Shown here: piece by piece, positions 26,611-36,702 of the stretch
How positions within the stretch are numbered: position 1 is the first letter of the stretch
How the letters are laid out: each line of letters starts with the position of its first letter
Origin: Solirubrobacteraceae bacterium
GTDB lineage: Bacteria > Actinomycetota > Thermoleophilia > Solirubrobacterales > Solirubrobacteraceae
DNA: 64,000 nt
Reading direction: 5' to 3'
NCBI GenBank assembly: GCA_029263125.1
Contig: JAJCYD010000048.1
Coordinates: 1 to 64,000 of the forward strand
Notes under the pieces: generated by a model
What the model saw: only the letters and a program-made list of their open reading frames with translations
What the model was told of the DNA's origin: nothing
Databases searched by the model: none
Position numbers and translations under genes: made by a program

Positions 26611-26729
26611 ACGTCAGTCGCTGAAGCGGTTCAGCGGCGACCCACGATGGCGAGGCAGTAGCCGCTCGTCAGCAAGCCCAGCGCCACAACCGGGTGTCTG
26701 CAACTCGCACCGAAGGTAGGGTGGGCGGC

Positions 26730-27605
26730 GTGCGATTGCAGCTCATGGCGATCGCGGCGCTCAGCGCCTGCTCGCTGGCCACCGCGGCCGTCGCGCAGGC
26801 GCCGGTGACGCCGCGCGGGAACTTTGGCGGCGGCGTGCTGGCGGCTCCCCCGAAGGACATCTTCGGGCCCGGCAACGCGGTCGTCGGCCTGCGCGCCCTG
26901 CCCAAGCGCAGGCTGGAGATCGAAGCCACGGTGCGCGCGAGCTGCTCGGGCGGCGACATCGCCGCGACGGCGAAGATCGCGTCCAACGGCCGCTTCAAGG
27001 CCAAGGGGACCGCGACCCAGGAGCCCCATCCCGCGCTGCGCATCCAGACCACGTACACGCTGAGCGGCCGCTTCACCGACAAGGGCTCGGCGTCCGGAAC
27101 GATCTCCGCGACGATCCAACGCTCCGTCGAAGGGCGCAAGGAACGCTGCAAGACCGGCACGTTGAAGTTCGCCGTCCGGCGCCCCATGTCGGGCATCGGC
27201 AAGGCCGGAGCGCCGAAGGGCGCGCGCTTCTACGGCATCACGACGCAGCGCAGCACCGGCCCGAGGCGGCCGATCGTCATCCGGATCTCCGGCGACGGGC
27301 GCCGCCTGACGCGCGGGCTGTTCAGTGAATCGGTGAAATGCAGCGACGGCAAGCTGTCGATCGGCGTGGAGGCCCCGCGGACGGATGTGCGGATCGACTC
27401 GCGCGGGCGCGTGCGCGACCGCGAGAGGTTCACCCTCAAGGAGGGTGAGACCGTCGTCCGCGTCGATGACCGCTTCACCGCCGACATCGGCTCCAAGGGC
27501 GCCCGTGGCACGTTCTCGCTCAGCGACAGGACGACCGACCGAGCGAGCGGCCGCACGATCCAGACGTGCAAGTCCGGCACCGTACGCTGGCGCGCCGTGC
27601 GCTGA
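26730..27605 (+). CDS. Secreted protein with duplicated cysteine-containing domain
   Basis: 291 aa from the GTG at 26730, chosen because it begins a clean signal peptide (VRLQLMAIAALSACSLATAA then VAQA) after a GAAGGTAGGG Shine-Dalgarno-like stretch. The mature part contains two halves of about 110-120 residues that resemble each other: each begins with a beta-rich stretch and a Cys (RASCSGGDIAAT; SVKCSDGKLSIG), has a GxAxGTxS element (DKGSASGTISAT; SKGARGTFSLSD) and ends with Cys-x-(T/S)-G-T-x-(K/R)-(F/W) (CKTGTLKFAVRR; CKSGTVRWRAVR). Two Cys per half could form one disulfide each. No known family recognised; such beta-rich secreted proteins are frequent in Solirubrobacterales-type genomes. 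Confidence 0.68.
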   Translation: MRLQLMAIAALSACSLATAAVAQAPVTPRGNFGGGVLAAPPKDIFGPGNAVVGLRALPKRRLEIEATVRASCSGGDIAATAKIASNGRFKAKGTATQEPHPALRIQTTYTLSGRFTDKGSASGTISATIQRSVEGRKERCKTGTLKFAVRRPMSGIGKAGAPKGARFYGITTQRSTGPRRPIVIRISGDGRRLTRGLFSESVKCSDGKLSIGVEAPRTDVRIDSRGRVRDRERFTLKEGETVVRVDDRFTADIGSKGARGTFSLSDRTTDRASGRTIQTCKSGTVRWRAVR

Positions 27606-27751
27606 GCTCGGCGGGGCGTCCGACGGTGAGCGGTGGACCACCAAAAGTTTCTCACAGCCATCGCCAGATCAGTTACATTGCGCCAGGTCGTACAGGATTG
27701 ATCCCGTGTCAACGGGACGCCTCCTGTGCGCTCTCCAAGGGGGTCGCATTG

Positions 27752-27790
27752 ATGATGCCAGCTTGTTGTCGACGATCGCTGTCGCCATGA
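27752..27790 (+). CDS. Candidate 12-aa leader peptide
   Basis: A 12-codon frame (MMPACCRRSLSP) with an AAGGGGG Shine-Dalgarno-like sequence about 8 nt upstream. Its TGA overlaps the ATG of the next gene (27787) as ATGA. The first membrane-protein gene has no ribosome-binding site of its own, so this short frame may deliver ribosomes to it. Tandem Cys and Arg codons are notable. Seen: the frame, the Shine-Dalgarno-like run and the overlap. The leader role is inference. Confidence 0.25.
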   Translation: MMPACCRRSLSP

Positions 27791-28074
27791 CCGCGCTATC
27801 GATGTGGTGGACGGTCGGCTGGGCAGTTGGAGCCGTCGTGATCCTGCTTGTCGCGATTCTCCTGCTGACGATCACCGGCTTGGCGCGCAAGGTCGACGGG
27901 GTGGCGCAGGATCTGGTCACCGACCTGGACTCGATCGCACGCAAGACGGCGCCGCTGCAGAACGTCGCCGCGACCAACAACGCCGTGCAGACGATCACGC
28001 GATGCCTGCGAATCGCTCGCGGCGGCGCACCCGTGGTCGATCGGTACTCGACGTCTCCGGGGTGGCGGGAATGA
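27787..28074 (+). CDS. Small membrane protein, operon gene 1
   Basis: 95 aa. One N-terminal transmembrane helix (about residues 6-30, VGWAVGAVVILLVAILLLTI) followed by an amphipathic, probably helical cytoplasmic part (LARKVDGVAQDLVTDLDSIARK) resembling the DUF948-like layout of a membrane anchor with an extended helix. No named family. It overlaps gene 2 by 4 bp (ATGA) and starts within the stop of a 12-aa leader-like frame. Alternative TTG starts exist upstream (27763), but the ATG gives a sensible N-terminus. Confidence 0.6.
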   Translation: MTALSMWWTVGWAVGAVVILLVAILLLTITGLARKVDGVAQDLVTDLDSIARKTAPLQNVAATNNAVQTITRCLRIARGGAPVVDRYSTSPGWRE

Positions 28075-28496
28075 TCATCGGCGTCTCAACCACCGTCAGC
28101 GTGCTCGCGATCATCGGGCTCGTCGTCGGGCTGGTCGTCCTCGTGGCCGTGATCGGGTTGCTCAACGGCACGCTCGCTCCGCTGCGCGCGGTGCTCGCAG
28201 ACGTCAAGGACGCGCAGACCGCGCCAATGCTCGAGCGGGGCATTCCCGGCACCGACCAGCTTGCCCAGACACGCAGGCTGGCCGACTCCGTGCCCGATCT
28301 GGCGTTGCGATATCTCGGCAAGATCTCCGCCGGCGGCATACCCGCTCCGTACTCCCCGCCTCCGGCCGCCTACTCGCCGACAGCGGCAGCGCCGCCGCCA
28401 CCGCCGCCGCCACCACCACCACCCGGCGCCGCGGTCGGCGGTCGCGAGATTCCGGCACCGTCCGTCGAGCCCGCGTGGAAGAGGTACCGCACATGA
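28071..28496 (+). CDS. Small membrane protein with polyproline tail, operon gene 2
   Basis: 141 aa. N-terminal transmembrane helix (about residues 8-32, VLAIIGLVVGLVVLVAVIGL), a central helical region (about 36-88, with QTRRLADSVPDLALRYLGKI) and a proline-rich tail with an uninterrupted run of about a dozen prolines (codons near 28390-28425) ending in EPAWKRYRT. The polyproline run would normally need EF-P for translation and would project as a stiff arm. Overlaps genes 1 and 3 by 4 bp each. No family recognised. Confidence 0.65.
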   Translation: MIIGVSTTVSVLAIIGLVVGLVVLVAVIGLLNGTLAPLRAVLADVKDAQTAPMLERGIPGTDQLAQTRRLADSVPDLALRYLGKISAGGIPAPYSPPPAAYSPTAAAPPPPPPPPPPPGAAVGGREIPAPSVEPAWKRYRT

Positions 28497-28756
28497 GCAC
28501 CGTCACCACGGTCCTCGCGCTGTCTGAGAACCAGTCAGCGTGGCAGTACACGCTCATCGCCGGTGTCGTCGTCCTGCTGGTGGTCATCCTTTTGCTCGAG
28601 ATGCTGCGGCGCACGGTTCGCGCGCTGGAGCGCGATCTGTGGCAGACGTGGGTCAACGGCAAGGCGGTCGTCAAGAACACTGCGACGACCTTTCAACTGA
28701 AGAACACCCGCGTCTCCGGCGACGAGCTCGTCGAGGAGCTGCAAAACCATGCATAG
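28493..28756 (+). CDS. Small membrane protein, operon gene 3
   Basis: 87 aa. A short N-terminus (MSTVTTVLALSENQS), one transmembrane helix (about 19-41, LIAGVVVLLVVILLLEML) and a C-terminal polar domain (RRTVRALERDLWQTWVNGKAVVKNT ... to VSGDELVEELQNHA; residues 43-87). Function unknown. ATGA overlap with gene 2; gene 4 follows after 15 bp. Confidence 0.62.
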   Translation: MSTVTTVLALSENQSAWQYTLIAGVVVLLVVILLLEMLRRTVRALERDLWQTWVNGKAVVKNTATTFQLKNTRVSGDELVEELQNHA

Positions 28757-28771
28757 GGGAAGGAGCGACCG

Positions 28772-29008
28772 ATGAACGAGTTCCTGATCGTCGCAACGCT
28801 TGTCGAGGTGCTGCTGCTGGTCCTCGTGCTCGCCGGCTACCTGCTGGCCATCACCGGGACGTTGGCGAAGATCCAGTCGACCGCGAGGCTGATCCAGATC
28901 GGCGTGCATGCGATCGACGACCAGACACGGCCGATCGAGTCCGAGGTGCGCGGCATCAACGGCGCGCTCGGCAGGGTCGCCGACGCGCTCAAGCGGGCAA
29001 CCGGCTAG
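28772..29008 (+). CDS. Small membrane protein, operon gene 4
   Basis: 78 aa. Starts with a transmembrane helix almost at once (residues 4-28, FLIVATLVEVLLLVLVLAGYLL) followed by a helix (KIQSTARLIQIGVHAIDDQTRP) and a Gly/Arg end. Same overall plan as gene 1: one membrane helix plus a short coiled or amphipathic region. The start has the best ribosome-binding site of the set (GGGGAAGGAG about 8 nt upstream). The next gene, an ABC1 kinase, is convergent, so the operon ends here. Confidence 0.65.
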   Translation: MNEFLIVATLVEVLLLVLVLAGYLLAITGTLAKIQSTARLIQIGVHAIDDQTRPIESEVRGINGALGRVADALKRATG

Positions 29009-29056: not shown

Positions 29057-30442
29057 TCAGGACGCCGTCTGCAGCCCCTCGATGATCAGCTCCGAGAAGA
29101 ACCGCTCGTGCACCGCCTGCAGGTCCAGCGACGGCGCGAGCTCGGAGGTGACGGCGTCCATCGCGAGCACGACCTTCATGTAGAGCACGATCAGCGGGTC
29201 GGCCGACAGCCGGTGCCTGCGCGCCGCGGAGAGCAGGTCGACCTGAAAGCGGGCGAGCAGCTCACGGCGACGCACGGCGGCGCGTTCGAGATCGTCGACG
29301 AAGCGCTCGGTGAGGCGCAGCATGTCCGCTCGCGCCCGCTTGGCGTCCGTCCCCGCCGACGGGCGCAGCCAGCGTAGGAGCTGAACGACGGCATCGTCGC
29401 TGTCGCCGCCGAACAGCGAGCGGGCGTAGTCGCCCAGCGACTGCTGGACCTCCGGCGAGAGACGGCCGACGATGCCGAAGTCGACGTAGCCGAGCCTGTT
29501 GCCGTCCAGCAGCAGCACGTTGGCCGGGTGCAGGTCGCCGTGGAAGACGCCGGTCGCGTAGACCTGGCCGAGGAAGTTCCAGACGACGTTCGCCGCAGCC
29601 TCCTCGAGATCGTGTCCTGCGTCGAGCAGTCGCCGCCGGCAGGCGTCGCGGTCGGCACGCAGCTCGCGGATGATGTCGACGAGCGGCACGCCGTGCAGAC
29701 GCTCGGCGGTGAGCACCCGGCGGGCCGAGTGGTCGAGGTGCGTCTCAGGGGCGTACTCGGTGCTCTCGTCACGGATCTTCGACCGGATCTCGATCGCGTT
29801 GGCGGCCTCGATGGTGTAGTCGAGCTCCTCCTTCGTCCAGCGCGCGAGCTCGTCGACGACCTCGCGGGTCCGCGTCGCGCCCAGCAGGCGGGTGGCGTCG
29901 ACGATCGTGGCCACCCGGCGCATCAACGCGATGTCGCACATCAGCAGCGCGCCGATGCCGGGGCGCTGCACCTTCACCGCGACGCGGCGGCCGTCGTGCA
30001 GGACCGCGTCATGCACCTGCCCGATGGATGCGCTCCCGAATGGCTCGGGGTCAAAGGATGCGAACAGCTCACAGATCGGCTTACCCAGCTCCTCGTGGAT
30101 CACCCGCTCCACGTCGCTGGAGGGAAACGGCGCCGCGCGGTTGAGCAGGTGAAAGAGCTCCAGGCAGTAGGACTCCGGCAGCAGGTCGAAGCGCAGCGCG
30201 AGCAGCTGGCCAAGCTTTGCCCACCCTCCGCCGAGCGTCTCCAGCGCGCGCCGCAGCCGTACCTGTCCGCTGGCGCGGCGCCGGCGCGGCGGCACGAGCT
30301 GTGCGAGCGCGCCGCGGACCACCAGCACCCGCAGCACCTCCAGGGACCGTCGCGCCGTCATCGGGCGCGTGGCCGTCGGGTGCGTGGCGGCCGTGCCTGC
30401 CGCGGGCGCGGACGCAGCGGTTGTCGGCTGGGACGGTGTCAT
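29057..30442 (-). CDS. ABC1/AarF/UbiB family atypical kinase
   Basis: 461 aa. ADCK/UbiB kinase-like protein, a family with ATPase or kinase-like activity tied to quinone or lipid metabolism. Visible: the KxGQ motif (WAKLGQLLALRFDLLP), the A-rich loop GSASIGQVH, the ATP-binding lysine in RVAVKVQRPG, the catalytic HGDLHPANV and the metal-binding DFG in YVDFGIVGRL. The N-terminus is Ala/Thr-rich and probably disordered (about 1-28). It is convergent with the small membrane protein operon, 48 bp away, so it may share a terminator region but not a promoter. Substrate unknown. Confidence 0.88.
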   Translation of the reverse strand: MTPSQPTTAASAPAAGTAATHPTATRPMTARRSLEVLRVLVVRGALAQLVPPRRRRASGQVRLRRALETLGGGWAKLGQLLALRFDLLPESYCLELFHLLNRAAPFPSSDVERVIHEELGKPICELFASFDPEPFGSASIGQVHDAVLHDGRRVAVKVQRPGIGALLMCDIALMRRVATIVDATRLLGATRTREVVDELARWTKEELDYTIEAANAIEIRSKIRDESTEYAPETHLDHSARRVLTAERLHGVPLVDIIRELRADRDACRRRLLDAGHDLEEAAANVVWNFLGQVYATGVFHGDLHPANVLLLDGNRLGYVDFGIVGRLSPEVQQSLGDYARSLFGGDSDDAVVQLLRWLRPSAGTDAKRARADMLRLTERFVDDLERAAVRRRELLARFQVDLLSAARRHRLSADPLIVLYMKVVLAMDAVTSELAPSLDLQAVHERFFSELIIEGLQTAS

Positions 30443-31584: not shown

Positions 31585-32496
31585 GTGGCTGCTGTCGACC
31601 CGGATCTCGCGTTGCGTCAGGCGGCAGTCGCTCGGGCACGGGAGCTGACGCAGATCTACGACGACCTCGTGCCCCTCAGCCGCTTGCGCGAGGGGTTCTC
31701 GCTCGATGGTGACAGCGTGAGCTTCGGGTCCTTCCAGAAGGGGATTCACCGTTCGCGATTGCAGCGTGGCGCTGCGGCGCTGACCGTGACAACGTCGTTC
31801 AACGACCCCTACGCCGACGCGTTCGACGAGCAGGGTCGCCTCTTCACCTATGCCTACCGCAGCGGAGCGATCGATCAGGCTGACAACCGCGCGCTGCGGG
31901 CAGCCTTCGAGCTCCAGACGCCGCTGGTCTACTTCCGAGCGCTCGCGCCGAGCCAGTACCTCGTCGTCGCGCCGATGTTCGTGACCGCCGACGACCCCGC
32001 CGCGCGAACCGTCGTGCTCGAGCCCGGTCTGCCGGTGCAGGACATGCAGCCCGGCGGGCTCATCTCGGGACCCGACGTGCGCGCATACGCGACCCGAGAG
32101 GCGCGTCATCGCCTGCATCAGCAGCGCTTCAAGCTCGATGTGATGCGCGCGTATCGCCACCGCTGCGCGATCTGCACGCTGCGCGAGCGGGAGCTGATCC
32201 AGGCTGCCCACATCGTTGCCGACGCAGAGCCGGAAGGCATCGCTGCGGTCGTCAACGGCCTAGCGCTGTGCGCGATCCACCACCTCGCGTTCGATCGCAA
32301 TCTGCTCGGGATCGATCCCGAAGGCGTCGTTCACATCGCCTCACGGCTCTTGCGCGAGATCGACGGGCCGATGCTGCGGACCGGGCTCCAGGGCTTTCAC
32401 GGCACGCGGATCGCCCGGCCTCGCCGTCAGGAGGATCGACCCGACGCGGCCCGCCTGCAGACGCGGTTTGACCGCTTCGTGATCGCCGCGGCGTAG
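31585..32496 (+). CDS. HNH endonuclease, COG3440-like predicted restriction enzyme
   Basis: 303 aa from a GTG. The C-terminal half carries an HNH_2-type nuclease domain: CAICTLRERELIQAAHIV (Cys pair and the first His), ... GLALCAIHHLAFDRNLLGID (second His pair and the metal-site residues), at about 194-250. The N-terminal half (residues 10-150) is a beta-rich domain with SLDGDSVSFGSFQKGIHR and TTSFNDPYADAF, possibly DNA- or modified-base-reading. The whole resembles stand-alone modification-dependent endonucleases, which cut foreign methylated DNA; that activity is inferred. It is the first gene of the accessory region, next to a perfect palindrome. Confidence 0.78.
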   Translation: MAAVDPDLALRQAAVARARELTQIYDDLVPLSRLREGFSLDGDSVSFGSFQKGIHRSRLQRGAAALTVTTSFNDPYADAFDEQGRLFTYAYRSGAIDQADNRALRAAFELQTPLVYFRALAPSQYLVVAPMFVTADDPAARTVVLEPGLPVQDMQPGGLISGPDVRAYATREARHRLHQQRFKLDVMRAYRHRCAICTLRERELIQAAHIVADAEPEGIAAVVNGLALCAIHHLAFDRNLLGIDPEGVVHIASRLLREIDGPMLRTGLQGFHGTRIARPRRQEDRPDAARLQTRFDRFVIAAA

Positions 32497-33508: not shown

Positions 33509-34567
33509 TTATCGGGTCGTTGCATCGACGCGCCGCCAGCGAGCACTCGGTCCGGCCCCCTCGGGGACGATGTCGCCGTCGTCACGGAGTGCGTTGATGA
33601 CAAGCCGGATTGTTGCGGGACTCACTTCGGGCAGCGAACGCTCGATCTCACGACGCCGGAACACGGCTGGGGCCTGTTCGAGGATGTGGCGGCGAACGCG
33701 GTCTTGCTTGCTGCCTTCCGGCTCACCAGCAGCGGCCACGCGCGTTTCGAAGTCCTCGTAGGCGTCGGCGATCACCCGGGCCAGGTAGGTCGTCCAGGGC
33801 CAGATGGTGTGCTTGCCCTGGTGCCAATCGCGTTGGGATTGGTAGAGCCGCTCGTAGTACGTGTTCTTGGACTGAAAGATCCGCTGCTCGATGCTGACGT
33901 AGCGGGCGACGCCATACCCCTGCGACAGCAGTTCGTAGGTCGTGAGCAGACGCGCGAGCCGACCGTTTCCGTCAGCCACCGGATGGATCGCGAGGACGTC
34001 CACGATGAGCGCGCCGATGAGCACAAGCGGATGAGCTTCCTCGTCCGCCTTCAGCCGCTCATACCGAGCCAGCAACTCGGTAAGCAGAAACTCCGTCTCG
34101 TTCGGCGGCGGGGGCACAAAGACGATCTCCCGTTCACCGCTCTCGTAGGACACGATGAGGTTCTCGTCGGTCTTCAAGTACCCGCCTCTGCCGCCGGAGT
34201 GGGCGAATATCTGGCGATGAAGATGAAGGACGAACGGCACGCTGAGCGCCTCGAACTCCTCGACGCGCATCAAGCCATCGACCGCGTCGCGATAGCCGGC
34301 GAACTCCTGCTCGCTGCGATTGCGAAAGCGGGGAGCGCCTTCGACGATCTTCTCCGCTCGTTGGCCATCCACGACCACACCTTCAATCGCGTTCGACGCC
34401 GTGATCGACGCGATGCGCGCATGCTCCGCAAGTCGCTTCAACAGCTCCGGGCGCTGGTCCATGAACAGTTGCTCCTGGCCGCGACCGATGTCGGCCTGCG
34501 CGAGGATCGCTCCGAGCTCGCGGGGTTGGCCATCGAAGGTGCGGTCGATGTCTACGAAGCTACGCAT
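33509..34567 (-). CDS. Fic-family protein AMPylase with winged-helix tail
   Basis: 352 aa (358 if the ATG at 34585 is used). Fic enzymes usually transfer AMP from ATP to target proteins. Fic_N domain at the N-terminus, the class II inhibitory helix motif S58-N-A-I-E62-G (of [S/T]xxxE[G/N]) and the catalytic HPVADGNGR (195-203; canonical HxFxxGNGR with V for F). The C-terminus (about 300-345, EVSPATIRLVINALRDDGDI) looks like a winged helix, so the protein could bind DNA and autoregulate. The upstream region has a four-box symmetric operator that overlaps the start codon. No adjacent antitoxin gene is evident; the inhibitory helix is in cis. Confidence 0.88.
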   Translation of the reverse strand: MRSFVDIDRTFDGQPRELGAILAQADIGRGQEQLFMDQRPELLKRLAEHARIASITASNAIEGVVVDGQRAEKIVEGAPRFRNRSEQEFAGYRDAVDGLMRVEEFEALSVPFVLHLHRQIFAHSGGRGGYLKTDENLIVSYESGEREIVFVPPPPNETEFLLTELLARYERLKADEEAHPLVLIGALIVDVLAIHPVADGNGRLARLLTTYELLSQGYGVARYVSIEQRIFQSKNTYYERLYQSQRDWHQGKHTIWPWTTYLARVIADAYEDFETRVAAAGEPEGSKQDRVRRHILEQAPAVFRRREIERSLPEVSPATIRLVINALRDDGDIVPEGAGPSARWRRVDATTR

Positions 34568-36249: not shown

Positions 36250-36702
36250 TCACCGCGGGGCTGGAAGGTGCACCACCGCGAGCGCCGCATCGTCGATGCG
36301 CGCTTGGTCGGCGTCGCACGTCACGAGCGCGTGGCCCCGCGCGCTCGCCGTCGCGGCGATCCAGAGGTCGTTGTCGGCGACGTTCCAGCCGTTCTGCCTG
36401 CTCAGCACCTTGAGACGGGCCCATTCGTCGACGATCGTGAGGTCGAGCGGGATCTGAAGGAAGCCGGCGAGCCGGCGCTCCTCGCGTTCGACCCGGGCGG
36501 CACCCCAGCCGGCGTTCAGGTACCCGTAGCGGGCCTCGGCCAAGGTGATGACGCTGATCGCAAGGATCGCGGCGTCGATCCGGTCGAGCGTTTGCTTCGG
36601 CCAATGCGAGAAGCGACCAGGCTGCGCCGAGCGCTTTGCGCTCGCCCCGACGAAGCTCGTATCGCACAGAAGCCGCTCTGGCGGCGACGCTGAGACACTC
36701 AC
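36250..36702 (-). CDS. PIN-domain toxin, VapC type
   Basis: 150 aa. The PIN-domain acidic residues are all present: D14 (LLCDTSFVG), E56 (ITLAEARYG), D112 (VADNDLWIAATA) and D130 (TCDADQAR). VapC toxins are Mg-dependent RNases that cleave tRNA or rRNA and are neutralised by a VapB partner. No normal VapB is present; instead a 296-aa protein lies immediately upstream with a 4-bp overlap. Rather basic near residues 20-40. This is the 3'-most gene of the integrated element, near the left attachment repeat. Confidence 0.85.
   Translation of the reverse strand: MSVSASPPERLLCDTSFVGASAKRSAQPGRFSHWPKQTLDRIDAAILAISVITLAEARYGYLNAGWGAARVEREERRLAGFLQIPLDLTIVDEWARLKVLSRQNGWNVADNDLWIAATASARGHALVTCDADQARIDDAALAVVHLPAPR

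Follow-up and report, generated by a model that had tools for sequence, protein, structure and literature searches.

A conserved set of small single-span membrane proteins associated with hydrogen and carbon monoxide oxidation genes in Actinomycetota

Analysis of a 64,000-nucleotide stretch of Solirubrobacteraceae bacterium (GCA_029263125.1, contig JAJCYD010000048.1, positions 1–64,000; hereafter, the window) showed that four adjacent genes for small membrane proteins on its plus strand belong to a gene module that recurs across Actinomycetota, mostly near genes of [NiFe]-hydrogenase or form I carbon monoxide dehydrogenase (CODH). Sequence comparison gives good support to the view that this is a conserved, unnamed membrane module of H2 and CO oxidation, and the module probably acts as a hetero-oligomeric membrane platform that tethers the soluble oxidases. 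Soil actinobacteria are a major sink of atmospheric H2 and CO; to our knowledge, the way in which soluble hydrogenases and CODH reach the membrane quinone pool has been detailed only for the hydrogenase Huc, through HucM, and in part for CODH, through CoxG. A concrete and testable candidate comes from a conserved, unannotated group of small membrane proteins whose genes accompany those of both enzymes; single-helix proteins of this kind easily escape annotation.

Organization and conservation of the four-gene set

The four plus-strand genes encode proteins of 95, 141, 87, and 78 amino acids, each with one N-terminal membrane helix, as a preliminary description of the window had stated and as the sequence confirmed: every protein has a single long hydrophobic N-terminal stretch with positive charge after it. 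No other run of at least three consecutive small membrane-protein genes occurs in the window, for which 67 genes were called. Gene 1 (27787–28074), with a predicted cytosolic helical tail, matched the profile of the family here designated A (E-value of 2.1e-27 in a search of its own genome), and its start at 27787 agreed with the W-W-x-V-G-W alignment of its relatives. Gene 2 (28071–28496) belonged to family D (3.5e-24), and gene 3 (28493–28756) to family B (4.4e-32). The product of gene 4 (28772–29008), assigned to family C, was 53% identical to the C protein of locus L070 but was without the TFGVRAIEKQTEPIGP motif. The junctions between genes 1 and 2 and between genes 2 and 3 are ATGA overlaps of four bases, as previously described, whereas the third junction, also taken for an overlap, is in fact a 15-base gap (28757–28771). 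The polyproline arm reported for gene 2 is likewise real, being a C-terminal proline-rich extension with 11 consecutive, unbroken prolines; however, it was not found in any of 20 aligned D relatives and is peculiar to the window copy rather than a feature of the system.

A search with gene 3 gave matches in 13 of 61 related genomes; this count includes the window's own genome, which holds a paralogue as well. Around these relatives, a run of five small one-helix genes recurred, with the fifth family, E, being absent from the window. The B profile was subsequently matched in 30 of 299 genomes of the class and in 37 of 396 genomes of the phylum. Across Actinomycetota, the genes were arranged as A-B-C-D-E, A-B-C, D-E-A-B-C, A-B-C-D-C, or A-D-B-C, of which A-B-C-D-E, A-B-C, and A-D-B-C were common. 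The last of these is the order of the window, where profile matches placed four adjacent, tightly spaced genes in that arrangement, and it was common to at least 10 other genomes of several families. The named carriers included metagenome-assembled genomes of Solirubrobacterales, Thermoleophilaceae, Gaiellasilicea, and Acidimicrobiia, as well as the cultured Pseudonocardia nigra DSM 104088, in which A-D-B-C and A-B-C genes adjoin those of the hydrogenase (L168). Judged from this conserved order and sequence in other genomes, the four-gene set is far beyond chance. The preliminary description had proposed a four-gene operon that matched no described system. Such an operon, conserved and not assigned to any named family, is supported here; both the order and the proteins recur outside the strain, Solirubrobacterales included.

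Families A, B, and D were mutually paralogous (hhalign values of 3e-8 for A/B and 3e-6 for A/D), and C was paralogous to E (1.5e-11), while hhalign detected no relationship between B and C. No Pfam or NCBIfam model matched the four proteins above the cut-off, and none of them matched the COXG domain (PF06240). A search of the open literature, with subscription literature lying outside it, found no paper describing the module. Several identities were considered and rejected: holins, MCE proteins, the sporulation protein IIIAC, and secretion-system components gave sub-threshold matches or none, and the matches to PDB sequences, Pfam, and NCBIfam were weak, chance-level hits to membrane helices or coiled coils. 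A plasmid or phage origin was also set aside, as one related DNA stretch compared with plasmids and one B protein compared with phages gave no match.

In addition, three consecutive proteins of approximately 250 amino acids (L052:7073–9500) have similar counterparts in L053, L055, L057, L058, L075, L076, and L088, often beside the five-gene module. Each has a single membrane helix at the N-terminus and long I-N-x-T-A repeats of a heptad-like kind. They look like extended paralogues, as the A, C, and D profiles match their N-terminal parts.

Linkage to hydrogenase and carbon monoxide dehydrogenase

The surroundings of 109 module loci, about ten of which were duplicates between collections, were surveyed with a simple gene caller and a clustering procedure made for this analysis. 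The neighbours comprised [NiFe]-hydrogenase small and large subunits, maturation proteases, NifU-Rieske proteins, and hypC/D/E/F, or form I coxMSL, and a hydrogenase or CODH structural gene was located within 10 kb of the module in 94 of the 109 loci. In L120–L122 and L136, the small- and large-subunit genes of the hydrogenase flanked the A-B-C-D genes, with a few bases between neighbours. The module, represented by B, was present in all 15 genomes of the class whose large subunit shared 50% identity or more with that of the linked enzyme (p = 2e-17; the genomes are related, so p values for co-occurrence overstate independence). Hydrogenases approximately 40% identical to the linked one, including the second hydrogenase of the window genome, had operons without any A–E gene. 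Neither a twin-arginine translocation (Tat) signal nor a membrane helix was found in 55 linked hydrogenase small subunits. That second hydrogenase, of 593 amino acids, is distinct from the linked enzyme, has the motifs RICGICGDNH and DPCLPCGVHMY, and is presumably a member of group 1h. In a module-linked large subunit (L051:3379–5295; C33:69878–71791 in the window's own genome), a C-terminal stretch extends beyond the motif DPCMPCTTHMH; the closest solved structure is 5aa5 (HofG). The linked hydrogenase may belong to HydDB group 1l or 1m (PMC9561532).

The linked CODH was of form I, with the CoxL motif AYxCSFR. The module occurred in 20 of 38 CODH genomes and was concentrated in one CoxL clade; in L126–L130, it followed coxMSL-xdhC-coxG. 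CoxG near the linked CODH (L203–L213) ended 0–3 residues after its domain in all 11 cases, with no C-terminal tail. In the comparison operons (L214–L226), 12 of 13 CoxG proteins had a tail of 41–116 residues, transmembrane or amphipathic, with a clear membrane helix in four, and one was tailless. Because the CoxG tail is missing near the linked CODH, we read the module as a probable substitute that takes over membrane attachment from it. A gene of approximately 150 amino acids resembling a CoxL fragment was also observed repeatedly at the end of module-linked CODH operons (L060:17538–17999, L063:928–1383, L066:19183–19644, and others).

Proposed membrane platform and alternative explanations

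The preliminary description had suggested a hetero-oligomeric membrane scaffold; this idea still fits best, although the link to hydrogenase and CODH, the five-gene form, and the divergence of the window's unlinked paralogue had been missed. In each of the five families, the membrane helix is followed by positively charged residues, a positive-inside bias predicting a cytosolic tail for A–E. The paralogous single-span proteins, with the N-terminus outside and the helical tail in the cytosol, would assemble into a hetero-oligomeric platform. Their cytosolic helices would form a coiled coil or helical bundle on which the soluble [NiFe]-hydrogenase or, for other copies, form I CODH could dock, and the anchorless enzymes would be held near enough to the membrane to reduce menaquinone, so that electrons could enter respiration. 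Linkage and co-occurrence with the enzymes, like the paralogy, conservation, and order of the genes and the lack of Tat signals, anchors, and CoxG tails, were seen in the sequences; tethering, topology, assembly, docking, and quinone access are what we infer. The AlphaFold model of the window B protein (gene 3) is a single helix spanning residues 2–86 (mean predicted local distance difference test score, pLDDT, of 76.5). The model of a C protein from a relative, based on an alignment led by the L070-type C rather than that of the window, has helices at residues 2–52 and 55–77 (mean pLDDT of 88). The C profile resembles designed antiparallel coiled-coil barrels, which speaks for coiled-coil character and not for homology. 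More tentatively, a common and previously undescribed adaptor of four to five paralogous single-span proteins might serve, across Actinomycetota, both [NiFe]-hydrogenase and the unrelated Mo-CO dehydrogenase through a heteromeric helical barrel leading to menaquinone, with the window copy being a free-standing and possibly exchangeable version.

Among the closest known parallels is HucM, the scaffold of the group 2a Huc hydrogenase of Mycobacterium smegmatis. Likewise small and helical, it is encoded together with a cytosolic uptake hydrogenase and provides a hold on the membrane and access to menaquinone via a coiled-coil tube (PMC10017518). However, HucM is a single, peripherally membrane-associated protein, while the module has three to five paralogous proteins with a true membrane helix, accompanies another hydrogenase clade, and is also found with CODH. 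CoxG is the quinone-binding membrane protein of Mo-CO dehydrogenase and the membrane-side partner of form I CODH, with a soluble-fold domain and a C-terminal membrane tail (PMC13240472, citing Kropp et al., 2025), whereas the A–E proteins are single helices without that domain. Isp1 and Isp2 of the Isp-type hydrogenases (groups 1e/1g) are a b-type cytochrome and an iron-sulfur protein, respectively (PMC11018855); the single-span A–E proteins have no conserved heme or iron-sulfur ligands. Similarly, cytochrome b subunits of membrane-bound hydrogenases have several spans and conserved heme-ligating histidines, while each window protein has one span and the A–E alignments contain no invariant histidine or cysteine.

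Several observations weigh against the platform. The contrast between tailless CoxG in linked and comparison operons (11/11 versus 1/13, p = 1e-5) is tied to phylogeny and comes from few clades; one of the 11 linked cases, L210, is module-positive by genome and not by operon, and CoxG of L126–L130 keeps a basic amphipathic tail despite the module. No homology to any solved anchor was seen, and the A, B, and C profiles gave no match to PDB Huc chains at E-values up to 1 (D was not searched). In ten module loci, including that of the window, the stretch examined contained no structural genes and no hyp genes, and no hydrogenase or CODH structural gene lies near the window module.

We consider it rather improbable that the module is not a permanent anchor but serves maturation or metal insertion at the membrane, in cooperation with the MoxR/CoxD ATPase and the CoxE VWA protein. 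Genes for MoxR/CoxD and CoxE accompany it whether the linked enzyme is a hydrogenase or CODH, and hyp genes often adjoin it; however, CODH operons without the module (L200 and L201) still have CoxD and CoxE, so these proteins do not need it, the tailless CoxG fits anchoring better, and no nucleotide- or metal-binding motif was found in A–E. It is very unlikely that the linkage reflects only co-regulation in a starvation regulon, with the proteins having an unrelated envelope function. Unlinked copies, such as that of the window, agree with this idea, but both the placement between hydrogenase subunit genes and the way in which the module keeps strictly to a single hydrogenase clade and a single CoxL clade go beyond co-regulation.

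A further alternative concerns the window copy alone. In a concatenated tree, this copy fell inside the hydrogenase-linked A-D-B-C group, beside the hydrogenase-linked copy of L071 from the same family, on a long branch, and it is a divergent orphan of that type. Unlike its linked relatives, it may be a remnant that is decaying or has been repurposed and takes no part in gas oxidation; we regard this as unlikely. The absence of a linked enzyme, the long branch, the altered C motif, and the unique polyproline arm point in that direction, as do the stretches next to tig in genus relatives, where the module was not found in the five genomes examined (one contig being short). Nevertheless, all four frames are open, the copy retains the ATGA overlaps, the membrane helices, and the order of the genes, and its proteins are still matched by the profiles at 1e-21 to 1e-33. 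The hydrogenases and CODH of the genome are encoded on contig C33, together with two other, enzyme-linked modules of the A-B-C-D-E form. As part of the proposed platform system, the window copy would probably serve one of these hydrogenases in trans or represent an alternative platform; this is the weakest step of the explanation.

Upstream region and surroundings of the window copy

A 12-codon plus-strand frame (MMPACCRRSLSP and a TGA stop; 27752–27790) precedes gene 1, with a Shine-Dalgarno-like AAGGGGG (27737–27743) located 8 bases 5' of its ATG. The preliminary description had considered it a possible leader peptide. The frame and its own Shine-Dalgarno-like run do exist. A longer open frame (27566–27790) includes it as no more than the 3' end, and its TGA overlaps the start codon of gene 1 in an ATGA junction. 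Gene A of several relatives begins at or beside the stop of a DUF1059 gene, in four of them with a 4-base overlap. A distinct regulatory leader peptide is unsupported; in view of these like junctions, translational coupling of gene 1 is the simplest role for the frame and the more likely one. A scan for sigma-70 promoters and intrinsic terminators found none, although such a scan says little in this phylum. A strong inverted repeat (27690–27729, plus strand) lies upstream of the frame, and a second predicted stem pairs the Shine-Dalgarno-like run. The hairpin at 27690–27729 was not relied on as evidence, with z = -2.4 in a post hoc window and approximately 0 in a wider one.

The window module is located between the conserved tig-clpP-clpX block and a variable stretch. 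Tail-to-tail with it lies a gene for a UbiB-like ABC1-family kinase (29057–30442, minus strand); a 75% identical relative in genome G006 adjoins a homologue of the gene at 26694–27605, without the module. On the right-hand side of the window module, the variable stretch contains genes for an HNH endonuclease-like protein (31585–32496, plus strand), a Fic-domain protein (33509–34564, minus strand), and a PIN-domain protein (36250–36702, minus strand).
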